In this document: positions 2,051 through 37,569 of the stretch, piece after piece | Layout: every line of letters starts with the position of its first letter | Numbering within the stretch: the first letter of the stretch is position 1 | Source: a virus | IMG/VR virus record: IMGVR_UViG_3300027985_000067 | Location: 1-37,569 of that record | Direction: 5' to 3' (one strand) | DNA length: 37,569 nucleotides | The notes under the pieces: model-generated | Database searches by the model: none | What the model was told of the DNA's origin: nothing | What the model saw: the letters and a program-made list of their open reading frames with translations, nothing else | Program-made: the position numbers and the translations under genes

Positions 2051-5000
2051 ATGAGTGAAAAAAGATTATCGTTTATAATTGATACAGCTAAAGCTAAGAC
2101 TGGTGCAGAGAAGATCAAGCAATCTCTTAAAAGTATCCAATCGGTAGCAGATAAATTGCAGAGAACTCTCACCAGTCTTGATATTGTGGGAATGTCTGGC
2201 GGTTCGGGTGGAAGTACAAGAGGTGTTGATGCCACAGCACGGGCTATGAAAAATGCCGCCAACTCTGCTGAGTTTTGGGAACAGCGTCTAAAGGATTTAG
2301 ATAGCGCACAATATAAGCACTTGGTTCAAACGAGGGAAACAGCTCGGCAGGTAGAAGCCTATCAGAAATCATTAGTACAGGCACTCACACCTGCACAGAA
2401 GCTTTCTAAAGCTGAGAATGAACTGAGCAAACAATATCAGTCTAGTAAAGTTCAAGCCGCACTTTATGAGAAGGGTTTAGCTCAGAAGAATGTAAAACAA
2501 CGTGAATCTGTTTCTCTACAAAAACAACTGGCACAATCTCAAGCACGTCTTGCCCAAACCTACACCAAAGAATATGCTGACCTGATTCGTAACAACGCTG
2601 CCATTCAGAAACGTAGACGTGAAATCCTTGGTCTAGATGACGCTCAGAAGAAAATTAGTCTAAGTGCGGATAGGCTACGCAGTGCTGTATTAGCAATAGG
2701 TGGTGCATTTGGTGCATATTCCTTTGGGTACATTGCTGCCGAAGCTGTACGGATTGCAGATGCTTACACGGGTGTTCAGAACAGGCTTGCTGTTGTAACG
2801 GGCGGTACAGTTGATTTGACACAAGCCACAAGGGAACTCCTGAATGTGTCTATTGAGTCACGTACTGCACTAGACACCACAATGGATGTGTATGCGAAGA
2901 TGATTCGTGTTACAAAGGATATGTCTTTCCAGAACAAGGATCTGTTACGTATCACTGAATCCGTATCTAAAGCTGTTGCTATGTCCGGTGCATCTGCCCA
3001 AGGTGCTGAAGGTGCGTTACTACAGTTCTCACAAGCATTGTCTGGTGACTTCCAAGCATCAGCACAAGAACTTAACTCTATTATTGAACAGACACCAGCC
3101 GTTGCCCAGTTGATGGCAGATGCTTTGAACAAGGTTGATCCAAGTATCAACGCTACATTGGGCAACTTGAAGCGTTTAGCGACAGAAGGACGATTTAGTA
3201 CAGAGATGCTTCTCGAAGGTATCTTGTTGATGTCTGATGGTATTGATGAGCAGTTCGGACGAGCTACACGCACTGTCAGTCAGAGCCTACAAGCACTACG
3301 CGACTCAGTAATGGTTACATTTGGTGAGATAGACAGGGCGTTTGGTGGTAGTGGTAGTCTTGCAGAGGGTATCACAGATGTGGCAGAGTCGCTTGGAGGA
3401 TTTAAAGAGGAGATTGCCGGTGCGGGTGCGGCTGTTGCAGCATTCATTGGTGTCGTCGGTGCATTCGGCTTGGCCGCACTTACCGTGTCACTCGGCACTG
3501 TTGGTGCAGCAATGATTGCGCTGGGTGCAGTTGTTGCAACATTCACTTATGGATTGACAAAACAGGAGGTTAAGCAACGGCTCCTTATTGAGAGAACACG
3601 CCAACTTCAAGCAGAGCAGCGTAATCTAAAGATGTCATATGAAGCACTGCTCCCAGAGATGCGTGCTTTTAATACTGAACAAGCTGAAGCTAAATACGAG
3701 GAAATATCTAGCAAAATTTCTCCTTTAAGGGCAAAGCTTCACAATCTTGGGTTAGAACATGATCGTCTGTTGAAATTGCAAACTATGTACGAAGGGGAGA
3801 TCATACCTTCTGGTGGGCTAAAACGCACCCAAGCGAAATTGAAGCAAGTGTCTGCACAAATGCAAGCATTGAAGGGTATTATTTTACAGCACACAGAAGC
3901 AAGGAATTTCCTACGAGACACGATCATATACAACATTGACCTAGAAGGTAAATATGAGTCCAGTCTAAAGAGCGTTAATCTAAAGACAGGTGAATTGATT
4001 TCGACACTCTATAAGGAGCAAGAGGCTAGAAAGCTCACCAATGCCCAGCTAGTGCAACAGAGATTCTTAATGGATGCCTACGCTTTAGCTGCTAAGGAAG
4101 GGATAAATCTAGGGGAGGAGCAGTATATACAACTTATCGAGCAAGCTAAGTTACTTGGACAGTGGGTTACTAAGTTGGATGCTACATCATCATCAACCCG
4201 CGACTGGAAATCCGACCTAGACTCTCTGCGCAAATCTCTTGATCCTACTTACGCTGCATTGCGCGATAAACAAGATGCAATGGAGATTATTAATAAGGAA
4301 GTGTCTAAGAGTGACCCTCTCTATAGAAAACTTGCGGATGCGATTGAACAACGATATACGAAAGCTGTACAGGATGCAACAAGTGCCAGTAAGGAATTTG
4401 CCACTCCGATGCAGACCATTCGCAACGAATTACTTGGAACACAATCTGCTTATGATACATATAACCAGATGGTTACCAAGATTATCAATGCACAAGGTGA
4501 TCAGGTAGAGAAGACTAGGTTGGTTCAACTTGCTTATGCTAACTTACAAGACACCCTATCAAACCAAATGGGTATTGCAGAGCCGCCGGAAGTGAGCGGC
4601 ATGATTCAAAAAGACCCGATTGAGGGGGAGCGGAATACCCTAGACAATTGGTATAAGGAGCAAGTGAAGCAAGACGAACTCCGTCTTGAATTACACGAGG
4701 GTTATTTGTCTAGGAAGTCCGAACTGGACGCAATGTATATGGAGAGGACCAATGCACTCAACAATGCGATGGTCGGTAGCCAGTTATCGACCTACTCGAC
4801 CCTGTATGGGGAAATGGGTGCCCTTGTTGGGGCTTTTGCTGGCGAACAATCGCTTGCCTATAAGGCACTGTTTGCCATGCAAAAAGGGTATGCTGTAGCA
4901 AGTGTTATTATGAGTAATGCGGAGGCGTTGTCTAAGGCGTGGGCGTCTGCACCTTTCCCGTTCAACCTACCAGCAGTTGCGATCACAGCAGCCAAGACGG

Positions 5001-5323
5001 GTGTATTAACATCAATCGTTCAGAACGTAGCCATGCCGATGGCAATGGCACACGATGGTATCGACTCCATTCCACAAACCGGAACATGGTTGCTTGAGAA
5101 GGGTGAGCGTGTTACCACAGCCAACACTTCAGCAAAACTAGACCGGACACTTTCTCGAATCGAAGCGGGTATGGGCGGAGAAGGTGTGCAAACCACATCT
5201 GGTAAAGTCTCTGTCAACCAGACAATAAATGTAACAGGAAATGTTGATAATAGAACTGCTAATCAGATTGCTTCAGCAACTGCACGTAAGCAGAGATTAT
5301 CCGAAGCGAGGTTTGGACGATAA
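2051..5323 (+). CDS. Tape measure protein
   Basis: This 1090-residue protein fixes tail length and is later ejected, helping DNA cross the cell envelope. The N-terminal 210 residues are heptad-rich coiled coil. Residues about 205-400 look like the conserved tape-measure N-terminal domain, including the segment QALSGDFQASAQELNSI. A Gly/Ala-rich hydrophobic stretch lies at about 456-502 and a second hydrophobic part at about 938-998. The C terminus is basic. At roughly 0.15 nm per residue the tail would be near 160 nm, a length typical of siphophages. The start at ATG 2051 has AGGGA upstream. The stop overlaps the next start (TAATG). Confidence 0.93.
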   Translation: MSEKRLSFIIDTAKAKTGAEKIKQSLKSIQSVADKLQRTLTSLDIVGMSGGSGGSTRGVDATARAMKNAANSAEFWEQRLKDLDSAQYKHLVQTRETARQVEAYQKSLVQALTPAQKLSKAENELSKQYQSSKVQAALYEKGLAQKNVKQRESVSLQKQLAQSQARLAQTYTKEYADLIRNNAAIQKRRREILGLDDAQKKISLSADRLRSAVLAIGGAFGAYSFGYIAAEAVRIADAYTGVQNRLAVVTGGTVDLTQATRELLNVSIESRTALDTTMDVYAKMIRVTKDMSFQNKDLLRITESVSKAVAMSGASAQGAEGALLQFSQALSGDFQASAQELNSIIEQTPAVAQLMADALNKVDPSINATLGNLKRLATEGRFSTEMLLEGILLMSDGIDEQFGRATRTVSQSLQALRDSVMVTFGEIDRAFGGSGSLAEGITDVAESLGGFKEEIAGAGAAVAAFIGVVGAFGLAALTVSLGTVGAAMIALGAVVATFTYGLTKQEVKQRLLIERTRQLQAEQRNLKMSYEALLPEMRAFNTEQAEAKYEEISSKISPLRAKLHNLGLEHDRLLKLQTMYEGEIIPSGGLKRTQAKLKQVSAQMQALKGIILQHTEARNFLRDTIIYNIDLEGKYESSLKSVNLKTGELISTLYKEQEARKLTNAQLVQQRFLMDAYALAAKEGINLGEEQYIQLIEQAKLLGQWVTKLDATSSSTRDWKSDLDSLRKSLDPTYAALRDKQDAMEIINKEVSKSDPLYRKLADAIEQRYTKAVQDATSASKEFATPMQTIRNELLGTQSAYDTYNQMVTKIINAQGDQVEKTRLVQLAYANLQDTLSNQMGIAEPPEVSGMIQKDPIEGERNTLDNWYKEQVKQDELRLELHEGYLSRKSELDAMYMERTNALNNAMVGSQLSTYSTLYGEMGALVGAFAGEQSLAYKALFAMQKGYAVASVIMSNAEALSKAWASAPFPFNLPAVAITAAKTGVLTSIVQNVAMPMAMAHDGIDSIPQTGTWLLEKGERVTTANTSAKLDRTLSRIEAGMGGEGVQTTSGKVSVNQTINVTGNVDNRTANQIASATARKQRLSEARFGR

Positions 5324-5916
5324 TGTTTATTGAAGAACGAATACTGGACAAAGTGAGTTATGGCTCTCAATTCGGACGAGAGTTTAATACAAGGATTGTT
5401 ACATTAAAATCTGGGCGGGAACGTCGTAATGCAGATTGGGCAGCGCCCCTTGGTCAGTATTCTGTTCTTTATGAACTACTCGAACCAGAAGATCATAAAG
5501 TAGTAATCGATGCTCATATGTCGTGTATGGGCGCTGCTGTTGGGTTTCGATTCAAAGACTGGTCTGACTATGAAGCTACAGATGAATTTATTGGTGTAGG
5601 TACTGGATCTGAACAAGAGTTACAACTAACCAAGAAGTATCTGTTTGGACCTCTTGAACATATTCGTACCATCACTAAACCTGTAGACGGGTATATCACA
5701 GTCTATGAGAATGGAGTCTCAATTCCTTACATACTTGATCCTGAGACAGGCATCGTAACATTTACTGCCACAAATGGTTCTAGTATCACTTGGTCAGGAG
5801 AGTTTGACGTACCTGTTAGATTCTCTTCTGACAGACTTGACGTAGAACCTATCTACAGTACATCTGGTGGGTTTCTATTATCTGCTGATGTTGATTTGGT
5901 GGAGATACGTATATGA
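5323..5916 (+). CDS. DUF2460-family distal tail protein (gene transfer agent gp12-like)
   Basis: This 197-residue protein opens with FIEERILDKVSYGSQ followed by a basic patch (GRERRNADW), a hallmark arrangement of the DUF2460/TIGR02217 family. The family is known from the Rhodobacter gene transfer agent and related phages, where it forms the distal tail ring joining tube and hub. It is the first of four genes in gp12-gp15-like order. Translation is coupled: the start overlaps the tape measure stop, and its own stop overlaps the next start (ATGA at 5913). Confidence 0.8.
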   Translation: MFIEERILDKVSYGSQFGREFNTRIVTLKSGRERRNADWAAPLGQYSVLYELLEPEDHKVVIDAHMSCMGAAVGFRFKDWSDYEATDEFIGVGTGSEQELQLTKKYLFGPLEHIRTITKPVDGYITVYENGVSIPYILDPETGIVTFTATNGSSITWSGEFDVPVRFSSDRLDVEPIYSTSGGFLLSADVDLVEIRI

Positions 5917-20688: not shown

Positions 20689-21270
20689 TCATAAGTAACG
20701 CGTACGAAGTGCTTGTGCCACACGCTCATCTTCTACGTAGTCCGAGTCAGCCAATTGACAAGCTAATTCATGTTTACGTTTCTTCCATGCCAAGTGTGCT
20801 TCGGGAGGGCAGTCGAAGCTACCTAGATATTCTGTCTTCGATGTGAATGGGTTGTTGCACCTTGATGTAAAATATGTGCCAGATTTAGTGACACCGAGAG
20901 GGAATTCTCCTCTAGACTTAGCACTGTCGCATAAGAAAGTATTGACCTTTGGATGCAGGAAAGCACACTTGTCAGGTGCGTATTCCTTACCATCACCAAG
21001 TAAATCTTTGTCAAGATGTTTGTTCACCCAATCCTCCCCCTCCATCCACGATCTGAAATTCGAGAAAAGCAACCAATCCTCACAAACATATGCTCCTTTG
21101 TAAGAGGGGAACTCTAAAAGGCGAGGTGTCCCATAACACCTAGTCAACATTTGATTCCATTTACTGTAAAAAGGGCATATCCAAATCTGTTTCTTTTTAC
21201 TGCCTGTCTTTTCATATTTACTGATAGGGTAGTCCGCATCGTTTGTTGCTACCCCAAACTTCTTCCGCAT
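20689..21270 (-). CDS. HNH-superfamily homing-type endonuclease with AP2-like C-terminal domain
   Basis: This 193-residue protein belongs to the group of free-standing phage endonucleases with FYSKWNQMLTRCYG (about 34-47), a conserved core W..F.NF..WM, and KHLDKDLLGDGKEYAPDKCAFL. These proteins cut DNA and spread their own gene. The C-terminal part (GVTKSGTYFTSRCN to EAHLAWKKRKHELA) is an AP2-like DNA-binding fold. It sits between the deaminase gene and the small cysteine-rich gene without disrupting either. AGAGG lies upstream of the ATG. The active site is inferred from family resemblance. Confidence 0.72.
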   Translation of the reverse strand: MRKKFGVATNDADYPISKYEKTGSKKKQIWICPFYSKWNQMLTRCYGTPRLLEFPSYKGAYVCEDWLLFSNFRSWMEGEDWVNKHLDKDLLGDGKEYAPDKCAFLHPKVNTFLCDSAKSRGEFPLGVTKSGTYFTSRCNNPFTSKTEYLGSFDCPPEAHLAWKKRKHELACQLADSDYVEDERVAQALRTRYL

Positions 21271-25664: not shown

Positions 25665-26600
25665 TTACCGACAAAATTCGTTTGTTGTATGCTGTTCAGA
25701 GTAACCAGCGCCTTGCAGGTTAAGCAAGTCTATCTGATGTTGTCGGTATTCGCAAGCCAGAAAGAATGCCAGTTCTTCTCCGTAGGTTTTTACCGAGAAT
25801 GCCTTTTTACACACCTTGCTATTTACGCTGTTCCAATGGGCACACCAGTAATCAGTGTATTTAGACTTTGTGGTGTCTTTGTGAACACCTTTAACGCCAC
25901 TTTTGTTGTTGGTTCTCAGTCCGTAATTATTACGCGATTGTTCCTTTTGGGTTGCCCATCTACAGTTGTCTTTACTGTACCCTTTGGAGTTATCAATACG
26001 ATCTAGCGTTATAAACTCACCTTCAATCTCTGGCTTCGGCCCCATGTCGGCATAGAATTGCTTGAAGTCGTTCACCCAAGTATCGCAGACCGTAATTCCC
26101 CTGTCTCCATAATCTTTATAGTCTTTGTTATTTGGGTCACAGCACCGCTCTTTCATCTTACGCCAAGAGCAATATTCAGGCGTGTTTCTCATTCCATGGA
26201 AATCATCTCGGTTTCTTTGAGATTCTTTAGCAGCGCATCCACAAGAAGATGTCTTACCGTAATTGAACCTGCCTATTGTTGTGGTAGTTGTGTTACCACA
26301 TTCGCATTGGAATAGCCACAAATAATCACCATTACTAGACTTCTCTCCAGTGCAACTAAGTGCTGTCAATTTATTCTTCTTAATTCCTGTTATGTCTTTT
26401 TTATTCTTAGACTTTTTTGGACAGCCACCACAAGATGAAGTTTGACCAGTCTTTACATAATTGTAATTCTTAGTGCAAGTGGCTCCACAAGAACATAAGA
26501 AATCAGCTACTTTCTTACCCTCAACTTTTCTGATGTTACCTAAGTAAGTTAGTTTTCCTTTGATCTCGCCTACCTGTAAAGGATTCTTCTCTTTAAACAA
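25665..26600 (-). CDS. Free-standing homing endonuclease with zinc-binding N terminus, HNH-like core and AP2 domain
   Basis: This 311-residue protein has two Cys-rich repeats near the N terminus (CSCGATCTK to SSCGGC, and CECG to SSCGC), then the core typical of phage HNH-superfamily enzymes: EYCSWRKMKERCCDPNN, YKDYGDRGITVCDTW, LDRIDNSKGYSKDNCRW. The C-terminal end SGVKGVHKDTTKSKYTDYWCAHW is an AP2-type DNA-binding fold. It starts at TTG 26600 behind GAGGAG. It lies between phoH and nrdA, a typical insertion spot of homing genes. Its cut site may lie in nrdA of related phages. Confidence 0.82.
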   Translation of the reverse strand: MFKEKNPLQVGEIKGKLTYLGNIRKVEGKKVADFLCSCGATCTKNYNYVKTGQTSSCGGCPKKSKNKKDITGIKKNKLTALSCTGEKSSNGDYLWLFQCECGNTTTTTIGRFNYGKTSSCGCAAKESQRNRDDFHGMRNTPEYCSWRKMKERCCDPNNKDYKDYGDRGITVCDTWVNDFKQFYADMGPKPEIEGEFITLDRIDNSKGYSKDNCRWATQKEQSRNNYGLRTNNKSGVKGVHKDTTKSKYTDYWCAHWNSVNSKVCKKAFSVKTYGEELAFFLACEYRQHQIDLLNLQGAGYSEQHTTNEFCR

Positions 26601-27949: not shown

Positions 27950-27978
27950 ACTATATAATGAAATTATACATTCATTAA
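27950..27978 (-). promoter_or_regulatory. Weak sigma70-like promoter candidate for the dUTPase gene
   Basis: On the reverse strand TTAATG precedes TATAGT by 17 nt, overlapping the end of the upstream exonuclease gene. The -10 is good (5 of 6), the -35 poor (3 of 6). A second TATAAT lies within the spacer. Confidence 0.3.
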
Positions 27979-28911
27979 CGTATTTCTCATCTGCTCTTTT
28001 GTCCGAACATTTTTCCGCATACGTTTATGACTACCACAGTTATCGCAACGATATGTCTCAAACTTAGACAGGTTCGTATAAGCATACTTGCCATATTGTT
28101 TAATCATAGCATCCGATCCACATGTATTGCAACGCATTTTGTCATCGTTGTAGTAGAGTCCTACATTCGGATGTTTGCTGTCCCAACTACGTAATTTCAG
28201 ATAGAGTTCTTCAAGACTCAATACGTCTAATTTATTGTACTCCTCAAGCTCCCGCCAAGCATCAGGATTATCCTTGAGACATTCATCCCAGAGATGGAAG
28301 CCATGAAACTTACCATGTTCACTCTTCTTGTATTTCATGCACAGTTTGTCTGTCAAGAATGCCAGTTTATTAGATGTAAAGCCAAACTGTTTCTTAGCAA
28401 TCTCTAGTGTATCTACAATCTTATATGGACTCGGACAATCATACCCCATTGAAAGGAATCGTGCATTGATCTTCTTCACATCAAAGCCTTTCATATTGTG
28501 CCCTACGACAATATCGCAATCATCTAGTAGTTCCCACAAGGTATCTAGTAAAAGGCTGTCATCCTCCTCTTTGACGTATCCTCGCAGGTCTTGGTAGATT
28601 ACATCGTCTTGACCTAACCATTTAGCACAGAATGATAACAGGAACCAATCTGTCTGGATTTGATTCAGTCCGACGTTCTCTTTGAACAGTCGCCAGACAA
28701 ATGCTCGAACTGGAGCAGTTTCTGTATCTAAGAACAGAATCTTTGGTCCATCTTGTTCCTCCGAAACATCCTCGCTCACACGAGCAAGAATATCATTTAC
28801 GGTACTTTTACAAGACTTGCGACCAAATACAATCTTGGCAATTTCTCGTGATGAGTATCCTAGACTGGATAAGTCTTTAACCTTATTTACGATAGTATCA
28901 TTGTGCTTCAT
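27964..28911 (-). CDS. RNase H-fold 3'-5' exonuclease-like protein with helix-turn-helix and zinc ribbon
   Basis: This 315-residue protein has a possible helix-turn-helix at residues about 17-45 (GYSSREIAKIVFGRK), a DEDD-type nuclease core with FLDTETAPV, DIVVGHNMKGFDVKKINAR and YNKLDVLSLEELY, and a C-terminal zinc ribbon (CNTCG, then CDNCG). The core matches predicted exonucleases related to the PolB proofreading domain and YprB-like nucleases. It likely trims or processes nucleic acids during replication or repair. The ATG has GGAG upstream. The domain combination may give it sequence preference; substrate unknown. Confidence 0.72.
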   Translation of the reverse strand: MKHNDTIVNKVKDLSSLGYSSREIAKIVFGRKSCKSTVNDILARVSEDVSEEQDGPKILFLDTETAPVRAFVWRLFKENVGLNQIQTDWFLLSFCAKWLGQDDVIYQDLRGYVKEEDDSLLLDTLWELLDDCDIVVGHNMKGFDVKKINARFLSMGYDCPSPYKIVDTLEIAKKQFGFTSNKLAFLTDKLCMKYKKSEHGKFHGFHLWDECLKDNPDAWRELEEYNKLDVLSLEELYLKLRSWDSKHPNVGLYYNDDKMRCNTCGSDAMIKQYGKYAYTNLSKFETYRCDNCGSHKRMRKNVRTKEQMRNTLMNV

Positions 28912-29596: not shown

Positions 29597-29776
29597 TCAA
29601 CTGAACACAGATGCCATCTTACCTGTAGAAATCTTCTCTATGACTTCTTCAAAATCAGGCAAGGTTTCGTTGTCTGCAATAATAGCTTCTACCATATTTA
29701 CCAGAGGGTCATCGAGAGGATCTAGCCCGACCTGTAGTAAACATTTCCTGAATGTATATAACTCACTTAAATTCAT
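29597..29776 (-). CDS. Hypothetical small protein, 59 residues
   Basis: The frame from ATG 29776 to TGA at 29597-29599 fills the gap exactly between the DUF3310 gene and the HNH gene. GAGGAGGG lies upstream of the start and the stop overlaps the ribosome site of the next gene (TTGAGGAGG). The product begins MNLSELYTFRKCLLQVGLDP and is acidic and helical. No family recognised. Confidence 0.65.
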   Translation of the reverse strand: MNLSELYTFRKCLLQVGLDPLDDPLVNMVEAIIADNETLPDFEEVIEKISTGKMASVFS

Positions 29777-30306
29777 AGCTTTCCCTCCTCAACAATCTGT
29801 CTGAAACTCTCTCTTCGAGTCTTTGTATTATCACTGCTCAGACCATGTTCGTCAAGCACTTTCTTCTGATCTTGTACAGGCATCTTCATCAATTCTATTA
29901 CACGCCTCTCGATCGCACCTTGGTCAAAGGTGATACCTTGTTTTTCCGCATAACTCTTAGTTGTGTGGCACGACTTACATACAAGAGCTAAGTCGTCTGC
30001 GCTCAAACATGTCATAGCTTCTACAAAGGATTGTATGTCTGAAATCTCTGTCAGTTTGTTCTCTCCTCTAAGGTGGTCTACTTGCAAATCCTTCTGCAAG
30101 AAATCTTGACCACAGAGATAACACTCTCCTCCCCAAACCATGTTACCAGTCTTTGTGTTAAGAACACGTTTACGGTTCTTCTTGATCACTTCATGTTTGA
30201 TAGGGCTTCTGTTCCAACAGGCTCTGCGAATCCCTCCGCGAATCCATGCTAGAAAAGATGCCTTCGTCTTCCATATATGAGGAAACTCTTTCCAAGGCTC
30301 TGTCAT
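29773..30306 (-). CDS. HNH endonuclease
   Basis: Start ATG 30306 (177 residues) is preferred over TTG 30318; GGGG lies upstream. The core is a classical zinc-supported HNH: CYLCGQDFLQKDLQVDHLRG, then LALVCKSCHTTKSYAEKQG, with CxxC pairs holding zinc and the DH pair of the first motif (VDH). The first 60 residues are basic (RGGIRRACWNRSPIKHEVIKKNRKR). It may be a homing enzyme or a nuclease serving DNA metabolism. The 102-nt gap upstream holds no clear gene or promoter. Confidence 0.78.
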   Translation of the reverse strand: MTEPWKEFPHIWKTKASFLAWIRGGIRRACWNRSPIKHEVIKKNRKRVLNTKTGNMVWGGECYLCGQDFLQKDLQVDHLRGENKLTEISDIQSFVEAMTCLSADDLALVCKSCHTTKSYAEKQGITFDQGAIERRVIELMKMPVQDQKKVLDEHGLSSDNTKTRRESFRQIVEEGKL

Positions 30307-30408
30307 TATTTGCCCCAAACAGCGTAGATAGAAATTCGTGTCAGATATCCAGCCACAATCATTTGTGACATAGCTTGTGTGGTTAGGATTGTTGGGATTA
30401 GGTATGGG

Positions 30409-33630: not shown

Positions 33631-33659
33631 ATAATAGTCTGTCGGGAGGGTTGTGTCAA
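33631..33659 (-). promoter_or_regulatory. Strong sigma70-like promoter whose -35 overlaps a stop codon
   Basis: On the reverse strand TTGACA (33659-33654) is followed after 17 nt by TATTAT (33636-33631). The TGA in the -35 is the stop codon of the Mom-like gene. The leader carries near-repeats CTAGCACAAAC and CTAGACAAAC, and ACAAACAT lies at 33604-33597. Confidence 0.72.
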
Positions 33660-34315
33660 GGGTTAAATTTAATATCTAGTGATTCACCATCGTCATACAT
33701 AGTCTTATCTAACTTAGGATAGGACTCCAGCACAGGATAATTCAGTTTCTCCAACATAGATTTTTTAGCATACTTGCTCCCAACCAGATAAAAGTACCTG
33801 TGCTTCTCTTTAGGTGGCACCATCTCAATACCATTCTCTTTGGCCCATTTAACTGGACTTGTTACGCCGTACCTATCTCGGATGGTTGTTGGATGCAACC
33901 GCTCACCATCAACTAGATAGGCTTTGTCGTGTGATTTAGTAGCACCAGTGTATAACCAATTTGTAGCTTGGTAGATTATACCACAGTGCCCCATCTCCGT
34001 ATCGGCATAGCTAACAACAGCACACGGTTTTGGCTCTAACTGTTTCAAAGCATTTCCTACCAAGAATGATGCTGCATTCTTCTCAGAAGTTTGGACTACA
34101 ACTCTGGACAACTCGTAGAGTCTGAAATCACGATCCATGAAAGCATGTTTTTGGATCGGTGGGGACGGCTGTCCAAATACAGCCACACCTTGAATGAAGC
34201 CTTCTTTGTCGATAAGGCCGAAACCTGCCCAAAAGATGCACTTACGTCTTGCGTAATGTTTCTCAAGAATAAACGGTTCACATTGGGCTTTGGTTAGCCT
34301 TTCAACTGTAAACAC
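33656..34315 (-). CDS. Mom-like DNA modification protein (GNAT-fold)
   Basis: This 219-residue protein resembles the Mom family, which adds a methylcarbamoyl group to adenines of phage DNA and protects it from restriction. Recognisable parts are FILEKHYARRKCIFWAGFGL (about 15-34), a VAVFGQPSPP strand, FRLYELSRVVVQTSEKNAAS (about 64-83), and VVSYADTEMGHCGIIYQATN (about 100-119). The start is GTG 34315 behind GAGGAGG. No com-like partner gene is recognised nearby. A related GNAT enzyme with another target is an alternative. The stop codon is part of the next promoter. Confidence 0.68.
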   Translation of the reverse strand: MFTVERLTKAQCEPFILEKHYARRKCIFWAGFGLIDKEGFIQGVAVFGQPSPPIQKHAFMDRDFRLYELSRVVVQTSEKNAASFLVGNALKQLEPKPCAVVSYADTEMGHCGIIYQATNWLYTGATKSHDKAYLVDGERLHPTTIRDRYGVTSPVKWAKENGIEMVPPKEKHRYFYLVGSKYAKKSMLEKLNYPVLESYPKLDKTMYDDGESLDIKFNP

Positions 34316-35096: not shown

Positions 35097-35357
35097 TCAG
35101 TGGCACTCAGCCCAATCTTTCCCGATAATGTAATCAGCGTCTAAGCTAACACGTAGCTTGTAGTATTCACTAGCCTGTTTTGCTGCTTGTTTAGCAAGCT
35201 CTCCTACACGACTGTAGAAGATTGCAGGCTTGCCTTCAAACATTGTATTGTCCCCGATAGGTTTGTCAAGCATATTAACAAACGCTATACGCTCATCTTC
35301 AGTTTCAAATGTCTTAACATCGACAAGGCTTTCGCACACTTCCCACTGCGCTTCGTC
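35097..35357 (-). CDS. Family A DNA polymerase, exon 2 (C-terminal part)
   Basis: After splicing, exon 2 begins with GAC GAA and encodes DEAQWEVCESLVD to the end LDADYIIGKDWAECH, like the last part of T7 DNA polymerase. The first two residues, Asp and Glu, complete the motif C (HDE) begun by the last codon CAT of exon 1; the Asp binds a catalytic metal ion. Read alone from an apparent TTG at 35360 it would give a meaningless 87-residue fragment. The stop TGA is at 35097-35099. Confidence 0.88.
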   Translation of the reverse strand, partial: DEAQWEVCESLVDVKTFETEDERIAFVNMLDKPIGDNTMFEGKPAIFYSRVGELAKQAAKQASEYYKLRVSLDADYIIGKDWAECH

Positions 35358-35620
35358 CAAAGTTCAAACAGGTTCGTTATTCCTGTCCCGCAACACCACT
35401 TGCAGCTTACGGTTTCCCGCAAGATCGGATCATATCACCATCCCAGAAGGATGCTCCCCGTTTCGACAACACTTGTTGCCTACGTCATAAAGACTGATCT
35501 CTGAACCTTCCCTATAGGGCTTGGCTGCTGATTAGCATGGGCAAATAGCCTTTAGCCTTCCAGCAATTAAAGGAGTTATTCGACATACGTTACCGTATGA
35601 AGCCACAACTATTTATGGTA
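35358..35620 (-). ncRNA. Group I self-splicing intron in the DNA polymerase gene
   Basis: This 263-nt insert interrupts motif C. The last exon base is T (CAT) and the last intron base is G, as required for group I splicing. P1 pairs exon TCAT with intron GTGG, putting a U-G wobble at the splice site. P2 is CATACG with a GTAA tetraloop and CGTATG. P4 pairs TTGCTG with CAGCAG within a Q-like AATCAGCAGCCAAG. The R-like GTTCAGAGATCA and S-like TGATC form P7. P9-like hairpins have a GAAA loop and ACAGG/CCTGT. No reading frame lies inside. Without splicing, exon 1 would stop at TAG after HYHK. Confidence 0.9.
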
Positions 35621-37569
35621 ATGAATCTGAATAAAAGCCTTGCCTTCAAAACTACTATCCCAAAAAGGATCGAACAACAATCCTTCTTGTTGCAGGGATT
35701 TCCAATGAATCTCATTGGCTTTCTTAGCGCAAATAACGCCTGTGCTCTGGAACAGCATGTTCAAGATGCTATGTTCTGACCGAATCCACAACTTTCGTCC
35801 GTCAATACCACGGATAAACTTGTTCTTGCCAACAGTCTTCCAGTATCGGGTAACACGATCTTTCAAATCTTTCAAAGGAGATGCGTTCTCCCAGAAAGAA
35901 TCGTACACCTGTTGCGCTCTGTTCATAGGCCAACCAAACATCTTTGAAACCTTGTTCACCTGTGCGCCGTACGTAAGTCCGTACTTGAGACTTTTCTGCT
36001 CATCTCGTGTAATCTGGTTGAGTTTTGCCATGACTGTGTGAACATCGTTCGGCTTCTCGGCAATAAGCATCTTGGCATACTCGTCACCACCATCGAACTG
36101 CTTTGTGTAGTGCCCTTCGACACGAGCCTCCAGACCTGAGAAGTCGTATCCAAGCTGGTAGCGGCCTTCGGAACATCCGAAAAGCGAACGAATCTCTTTA
36201 CCAAACATAGACGTAACCCTAGGGATATTACACACTACGGCATGTTTGTACCTCGATGTCGCAGCTCCGCAAGAGATAGCCGGTGTTCTGATACGTCCAT
36301 TCTCTTGAATCTCTGTCAAAAACCCTTTGCCAGAACCCCCTAGAATACTGTTCCGTCTGTGCCGATATGTCAGCCACTTAACAACCTCCTCAACGAATGA
36401 AACCTTAGAACCAAGTGCGATCAAAGAAGGGCAGAGTTCTTTGTCTTGGTTGATTACATATTTCGGTGAAGTGAGAACCTTCAAAGGTTTTGTCATATCG
36501 TGGTTGACCAGCTTCATATACATTTGAGCCGGTTTGCAACGTAGCTTCTCACAACGAAACTTCTTGAAGTTACTAGATATAGTTTCATCAACGTAACGCT
36601 CAACTCGTTGCATGAATTTATCTCTACTCACTTTCTGTTTCTTTTCATCAATAGTTAAGTCCTTCTCTGCCCACACAGTAGGCTCCCACCCTAGAGATAC
36701 AAGCCACTCCTTAATATCGGCTTGGTTTGCTAGAAGCATAGGCTCTTTGTCTACAAGCGGTTCTGTTGGTAATGGTAGTTTGAAAGTCTTGCCGAACATC
36801 TCAACCGTTCGTTTGTCCGTAAAGACACCCCCATGTTTCTCAACAAACTTCTCCAGATTAGCAGAAACATTACCATCTTTCTTGAACTGAATCTTAGGTG
36901 GCACAAACTTCTTGGCGTTCGTCTTGCTCATCGGTTTCTTTGGAAGAAGTGGCTCAACCTCTTTCTCAATACGTTCCAGCTCCTTGTTTAGAAAAACAAG
37001 ATTCTGTTCTGCCAACTCCTTGTTGAAGTGAAACCCGAAGTGGCTCTGGCGTTCTGTAATGTACGCCGTATAAGCCTCAGTCTCATACGCATCCTGCCAA
37101 TCCCAACTAGCTGCCTCTTGTAGAATAGCCTTGTAAACTTTCTCAGACAGCTCTACGTCTTGAACACAATAGTCAAGCATCTCTTCGGAGAACTGCTCCC
37201 ACACAGAGGGGCCAGCTTTGCCAAAAGTCCCTTTGTAGAAGTTTAGAGTCTTACCCCACTCATCAAGGGAGTGTCCTCTCAGACGATCTGGGTTCAGCAG
37301 TCGGCTCCAAACCAATGTGTCGGTAATCTTTACCTTACGCCCGTTGATGGAGTCTGGCTCAAACTTCAATCCGTAAAACACTTCCAACACAAGCAAGTCA
37401 TAAGAGATAATGTTATGTCCAATTACCTCCGTCACTTTACTGAAGAAGTTTGGAACCTCTCGAAGATTGTCTCCATAAAACTTATACAACTCACCTGTGT
37501 CAATATCCTTGGCTACAAGGCAGTGGATTTTCTGGTCAGGCTTTGGTCGAAGAGGGAAGCTAGAATAAT
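35621..37569 (-). CDS. Family A DNA polymerase, exon 1 (T7 gp5-like), 5' end beyond window
   Basis: The frame continues to the right edge (no start seen there) and is joined to exon 2 at CAT. It carries a 3'-5' exonuclease part (VIGHNIISYDLLVLEVF, DTLVWSRLLNP, MLDYCVQDVELSEKV) and polymerase motifs A (QLGYDFSGLEARVEGHY) and B (RDEQKSLKYGLTYGAQ). The tyrosine of motif B aligns with T7 Tyr526. It copies phage DNA; T7-type enzymes use host thioredoxin, but I cannot place such a loop here. An apparent TTG at 37489 is internal, since homologous residues (KIHCLVAKDIDTGE) are encoded upstream of it. Confidence 0.93.

Follow-up and report, generated by a model that had tools for sequence, protein, structure and literature searches.

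The family A DNA polymerase gene in the stretch of viral DNA analysed here (the window, 37,569 nt; IMG/VR virus record IMGVR_UViG_3300027985_000067, a single metagenomic contig) is very probably split at site 881 by a self-splicing group I intron of the HEG-less form; this assessment takes the intron, its site and its splicing together and leaves aside any role of the HNH endonuclease gene that follows the polymerase. The interruption falls in motif C of the polymerase, at a point which we take to lie between His881 and Asp882 in the numbering of E. coli Pol I. The features of the locus are collected in Table 1. A standard gene call would give two broken polymerase pieces at this position, neither of them functional.

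Table 1. Features of the split polymerase locus, with positions counted along the window.
Feature	Positions	Strand	Details and basis
DNA polymerase (family A) exon 1	35615..37567	(-)	Open at window end; Pfam, PHROG, relatives
Group I intron, 257 nt	35358..35614	(-)	RF00028, limits of homologues, covariation, empty sites
P1	35603..35618	(-)	Exon CCAT 35618-35615 pairs with guide GTGG 35606-35603
P10 partner GTT	35607..35609	(-)	Pairs with exon 2 GAC 35357-35355
P7, guanosine-binding helix	35428..35499	(-)	GATCA 35499-35495 with TGATC 35432-35428
DNA polymerase exon 2, DEAQWEV...WAECH	35097..35357	(-)	Stop 35099-35097; translation, PHROGs, intronless relatives
Freestanding HNH homing endonuclease gene, 172 aa	34567..35085	(-)	Pfam, PHROG, structure match, relatives after polymerase genes

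An earlier note, made from the sequence before any database search, had read the host gene as a DNA polymerase and the insert as a group I intron, and had asked for a covariance search. The first reading is confirmed by exon 1, an open frame of 652 residues, which matches Pfam DNA_pol_A (E 5e-13) and PHROG 17 (E 5e-103) and is 47% identical over its full length to the polymerases of KLEP7 and PAc. Exon 2 encodes 86 aa that match the phage polymerase C-terminus (PHROG 8888/16667/15971), and in intronless relatives this part runs on unbroken from the part equivalent to exon 1. The covariance search likewise returned the expected class, with RF00028 (group I intron) matching 35406-35624 (-) at 66.5 bits, above the gathering score of 50, with an E value of 6.9e-15 over the full-length model; an Rfam scan of the window at E<=1 gave no other match. 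As the locus is represented by one metagenomic contig only, an assembly error or a chance sequence might be considered, but the E value of 7e-15 and the finding of homologues with the same boundaries in isolated phages make the probability of this essentially nil, and the isolated-phage homologues already refute it.

The exact limits of the intron follow from comparison with uninterrupted genes. The final codons of exon 1 are ATT CAG ATT CAT TAC CAT (IQIHYH), after which the intron begins with AAATAG, which holds an in-frame stop, and ends with CTTTG, its final base being the G at 35358 (-); without splicing the frame reads IQIHYHK and stops immediately. The intronless polymerases of PAc (L007) and PAK_P5 (L008) read AYH/DESQ across this junction, that of viral contig L010 reads MMHYH/DECQW, and that of L081, which is 63% identical to the polymerase of the window, reads IHYH/DEAQWQV. 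When the intron is removed exactly, the junction of IQIHYH with DEAQW aligns without gaps to L081, L010 and L007, and the frame is restored. The exons of KLEP7, SPA01 and HM1 stop at this very point with AYH, AYH and DMH, respectively, and in KLEP7, SPA01, phiTE, HM1 and the Vibrio phages the terminal H is followed by an intron starting with AAAT or similar. Based on the intronless relatives and on the splice-site U.G pair, U35615.G35606, to which the Rfam consensus U10.G21 aligns, the intron runs by sequence comparison from 35614 to 35358 (-) and is 257 nt in length, located between the His and Asp codons of motif C, and the spliced peptide is expected to read FIQIHYHDEAQWEV (IQIHYH joined to DEAQW). 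The alignment of intronless relatives also bears out the placement of the insert in the HDE motif, after the His codon of motif C and before those for Asp and Glu, and the 3' end at 35358 (final G, then GAC GAA) is as first described. No minus-strand ORF of at least 60 aa is found in 35358-35614, so no endonuclease gene lies within the intron, which agrees with its earlier description as compact and devoid of an internal gene.

The secondary structure was assessed in an alignment of 20 introns, all from the same insertion site. RNAalifold predicted 51 pairs, 37 of which are changed on both sides, and P7 was absent from this prediction. The structure with P7 and P10 added has 51 named pairs, in which 97.4% of cells pair and 35 pairs change on both sides. 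None of 500 shuffles matched the observed pairing or covariation values, and sliding the partners by 1-3 columns reduced pairing to 35-39%, a control that is somewhat biased in favour of the structure because the structure was partly derived from the same alignment. P7 takes the form GATCA/TGATC in the window, GACTA/TAGTC in most of the others and GGCCA/TGGTC in rv5, with 100% of cells paired, and P10 is GTT/GAC in the window and in L080 and ATT/GAT in the other 18 introns, a single double-sided change that lends further support to the limits given above. On the strength of the covariation across the alignment, the P7 variants and the P10 change, the core helices (P3-P9), P7 included, are all present and compensated as read from the aligned sequences. 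Subgroup IA2 would be marked by P7.1/P7.2 helices between P7 and P3; in the alignment, a hairpin 3' of the P7 5' strand occupies columns 184-200. The intactness and compensation of every core helix, together with an RF00028 score that exceeds the gathering cut-off, make it highly unlikely that this is a degenerate intron that no longer splices, with the polymerase made as two separate chains or inactive. Split phage genes that are functional do exist, as in the Aeh1 NrdA (PMC2988022, PMC7344957), but here exon 2 begins without a start codon and the split falls inside a catalytic motif.

In all 20 introns (20/20) the P1 pairing CCAT/GTGG and the exon sequence TACCAT are unchanged and the pair U35615.G35606 is invariant, and the last base of the window intron is G; the exon-terminal U, omega-G and U.G wobble in P1 previously proposed for this intron thus stand. 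The 5' boundary does not, being placed 6 nt (two codons) too far upstream: the earlier note had set the 5' splice site after IQIH at 35621, and the TACCAT that this assigns to the intron encodes the conserved Tyr-His of motif C. Consequently its intron length (263 nt) and its spliced peptide (IQIHDEAQW, where intronless relatives predict IQIHYHDEAQW) are incorrect as well. A CAT codon does occur at that position too, and a shorter P1 containing a U.G pair can be drawn there. A 263-nt intron is nonetheless extremely improbable, given that the intronless relatives all keep Tyr-His (or Met-His) before Asp-Glu, leaving no room for a two-codon shift, that TACCAT and P1 are invariant, and that the KLEP7, SPA01 and HM1 exons end at the 257-nt junction.

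With these limits, the guanosine cofactor held by P7 would attack after U35615, and the freed exon would then attack after G35358, joining CAT to GAC. The joined message would encode IQIHYHDEAQW, and unspliced RNA would give a dead polymerase ending in HYHK. These steps are inferred from the established group I mechanism; the fold, limits and site are drawn from sequence and covariation.

Taken by itself, the intron is unremarkable for group I, and its site was on record before. Polymerase introns of the T7-like phages phiI and W31 are located at site 881 (PMC3428280); these group IA2 introns share with that of the window the gene, the site and the position in the catalytic motif, a likeness taken from the published site numbering, but they carry an HNH endonuclease within P6a, whereas the window intron is gene-free. 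Homologous introns with the same codon boundary as in the window are found in phiTE, CB7, A5-4 and GEC_vB_MG (Vequintavirinae), KLEP7 and SPA01, and these contain HNH genes of a lineage other than that of the freestanding HNH of the window; searches by blastn recovered the HNH-bearing versions in phiTE, A5-4, GEC_vB_MG and SPA01, and KLEP7 has a same-site intron too. The homologous intron of CB7 is spliced, as RT-PCR with sequencing of the product established (PMC7344957). By blastn, introns bounded as in the window were also identified in Vibrio phages qdvp001, IBT_VpB-34, K470 and 424E50-1 and in rv5 and its relatives; those of the four Vibrio phages and rv5 are HEG-less and are the nearest intron sequences. 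The Vibrio-phage introns are 76-77% identical to that of the window over aligned columns, but the polymerases of these phages are only ~23% identical to that of the window and their downstream endonucleases belong to other families. The parallel with SPO1 drawn in the earlier note holds insofar as SPO1 also has a group I intron in a phage DNA polymerase gene, but it is rejected as a same-site parallel: the introns of SPO1, SP82, Bastille and Pf-WMP3 lie at site 674 in E. coli numbering, as opposed to 881 (PMC3428280), and the precedents for the site seen here come from phiI/W31 and from the rv5/phiTE/CB7 group.

Scanning viral contigs for the intron 5' end and, independently, searching with only exon 1 as the query yielded a series of loci in which this one codon boundary exists in three states: empty, occupied by a gene-free intron of 232-311 nt, or occupied by an endonuclease-bearing intron of 687-919 nt. 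Among polymerases 94-97% identical to that of L042 (262 aligned aa), the intron is present in L033, L051 and L077, as in L042, and absent from L094, L095, L108 and L123. As gauged by sequence identity, the intron has clearly passed from phage to unrelated phage over evolutionary time: the window and qdvp001 share 76% identity in the aligned columns of their introns but only ~23% in their polymerases. Several phages have more than one such element. The polymerase of Vibrio phage 424E50-1 (L012) apparently holds two group I introns close together (2651-2900 and 2998-3212, 93.3 and 65 bits), and that of Vibrio phage VnaP (L023) holds two as well (3403-3623 and 3997-4217), the VnaP record labelling the polymerase pieces "DNA polymerase II", "III" and "IV". 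Strong group I matches are also found in Acinetobacter phage YMC13/03/R2096 (L022) at 3560-3829 and 3945-4167, just upstream of the gene annotated as the terminase large subunit, whose true start may lie further out than the annotation has it.

The intron adds a new member at a known site, and the neighbouring endonuclease slot is the more interesting part of the locus. The earlier note mentions neither this slot nor the occurrence of the insertion site in many other phages. The HNH gene starts with an ATG 11 nt past the polymerase stop, and its Shine-Dalgarno sequence (GAGGAG, 35098-35093) overlaps that stop. The HNH protein matches Pfam HNH_3 (E 1e-9) and PHROG 59 (E 9e-39), and its nearest solved relative is the I-HmuI structure 1u3e (E 1e-8). 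Genes for its relatives immediately follow that of the polymerase in Vibrio phage VH-8, Pseudoalteromonas phage HM1, Psychrobacter phage D'Alembert, Pseudomonas phage PsaM_M1 and Acinetobacter phages Liucustia, D22 and AM24, and lie elsewhere in the genome in 29485, Phab24 and EcoN5; a search of viral contigs for close relatives found none. In a tree of 32 HNHs, the 14 polymerase-adjacent proteins, including that of the window, form one group (86/94), nine of them beside HEG-less introns, and the main intron-borne group (8 rows, 99/100) is separate from it. Simple relocation of an intronic HNH to the outside of the intron is disfavoured because these two sorts of HNH fall in separate groups.

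A homing-type endonuclease (HNH or GIY-YIG) directly followed the polymerase in 10 of 16 loci with gene-free introns and in no more than 8 of the 53 loci without an intron (Fisher p 0.0005, or 4e-5 with one clade of negatives collapsed, both values being rough because the contigs are interrelated). This count took contigs with at least 700 nt downstream and omitted the window and HM1; among the ten calls, L044 and L052 have Pfam scores below the cut-off and L067 is called by PHROGs only. Four Vibrio phages, which stand outside the 10 of 16, also have endonuclease-type genes after the polymerase, and at least six contigs with HEG-less introns have no adjacent endonuclease. The first protein after the intronless polymerases of L089 (1735-2184), L097 (5020-5454) and L128 (5167-5625) resembles the Endonuclease VII type (CxxC...Y), a fold also found in the homing endonuclease F-CphI; in that set, three Endonuclease VII-type members, unnamed, were counted by the Pfam scan.

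In this lineage the intron and the endonuclease have changed hands independently of each other, as they are combined differently in L080 and L082 than in the window. L080 has the closest polymerase (87% aa identity over 262 aligned residues, 77% nt identity over exon 1), yet its intron is of another lineage, 55% identical to that of the window and on the opposite side of a 100/100 branch, and the slot of the window HNH is filled by a GIY-YIG endonuclease with an I-TevI-type DNA-binding domain (5290-5811 (+)). This rules out inheritance of the intron and HNH as a unit from the nearest relative. The L082 intron belongs to the L080 lineage, being 79% like that of L080 and 54% like that of the window, and the HNH of L082, at ~60% identity, is the nearest to that of the window.

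An HEG-less intron and a freestanding endonuclease gene adjoining the same host gene make up the arrangement of collaborative homing, which has been described for T3-like and cyanophage systems (PMC3984707, PMC2988022, PMC10448857). The spread of the intron would depend on recombination begun in trans, most likely by the adjacent HNH, which would cut intronless polymerase genes near the site, with repair copying the intron and its neighbour together. We give an even chance to the proposal that the HNH starts the recombination that carries the intron. The window resembles T3 gene 5.3, cyanophage psbA with F-CphI and ICP1 terL in that a freestanding endonuclease adjoins a gene with a known intron site, and the T3 HNH follows the polymerase as in the window, but the T3 polymerase is intronless, and cleavage at the intron site, a prediction for the window locus, has been reported for the collaborative-homing systems. 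Similarity between T3 gp5.3 and the window HNH is undetectable, and descent of the latter from the former is rejected on that ground.

It is also plausible, if somewhat short of an even chance, that the intron self-splices as an old, immobile passenger and that the HNH is unrelated to it, spreading alone through cuts made at other points within the polymerase gene or close to it. The same HNH lineage follows the intronless polymerases of VH-8, Liucustia, AM24, D22 and D'Alembert (among these five and HM1, the six genomes scanned, only HM1 showed a polymerase intron), and thus does not require an intron. Further, the introns of L033, L042, L051 and L077 have no adjacent endonuclease, and the intron and HNH trees conflict, the window intron being nearest to Vibrio-phage introns and its HNH to that of L082. 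Against an unrelated HNH, loci with HEG-less introns have an adjacent endonuclease several times as often as intronless genes do, the unrelated HNH and GIY-YIG families fill one slot beside such introns, and the intron has moved among phages with polymerases as distant as those of the window and qdvp001. More broadly, and tentatively, motif C of phage family A polymerases may be a modular homing locus, at which gene-free introns, all at one codon boundary, and freestanding endonucleases, all in one slot behind the stop codon, are exchanged independently and unrelated endonuclease families (HNH lineages, GIY-YIG) converge on one target. If so, collaborative homing would be a common and stable way of life for small introns and not a transient step toward intron-borne endonucleases. 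Because the locus forms a natural series, with the boundary empty, holding a gene-free intron or holding an endonuclease-bearing one, and with varied endonucleases in the neighbouring slot, it allows a direct test of whether small introns persist by borrowing the endonuclease of a neighbour.

Further HNH genes are located in the window at 20689-21270 (-), 25665-26600 (-) and 29773-30318 (-) (PHROGs 953, 374 and 1985), which brings the number of homing-type genes in the 37.6 kb to four or more. Two of these three lie on either side of a stretch that encodes PhoH-like, dUTPase, exonuclease and nucleotide kinase proteins, close to the RNR genes. A Mom-like DNA modification protein (PHROG 1384, E 4e-44) is encoded at 33656-34315 (-). 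At 27964-28911 (-) a further gene encodes a "DNA polymerase exonuclease subunit" (PHROG 403, E 8e-115), distinct from the polymerase, which has an exonuclease-like region of its own.
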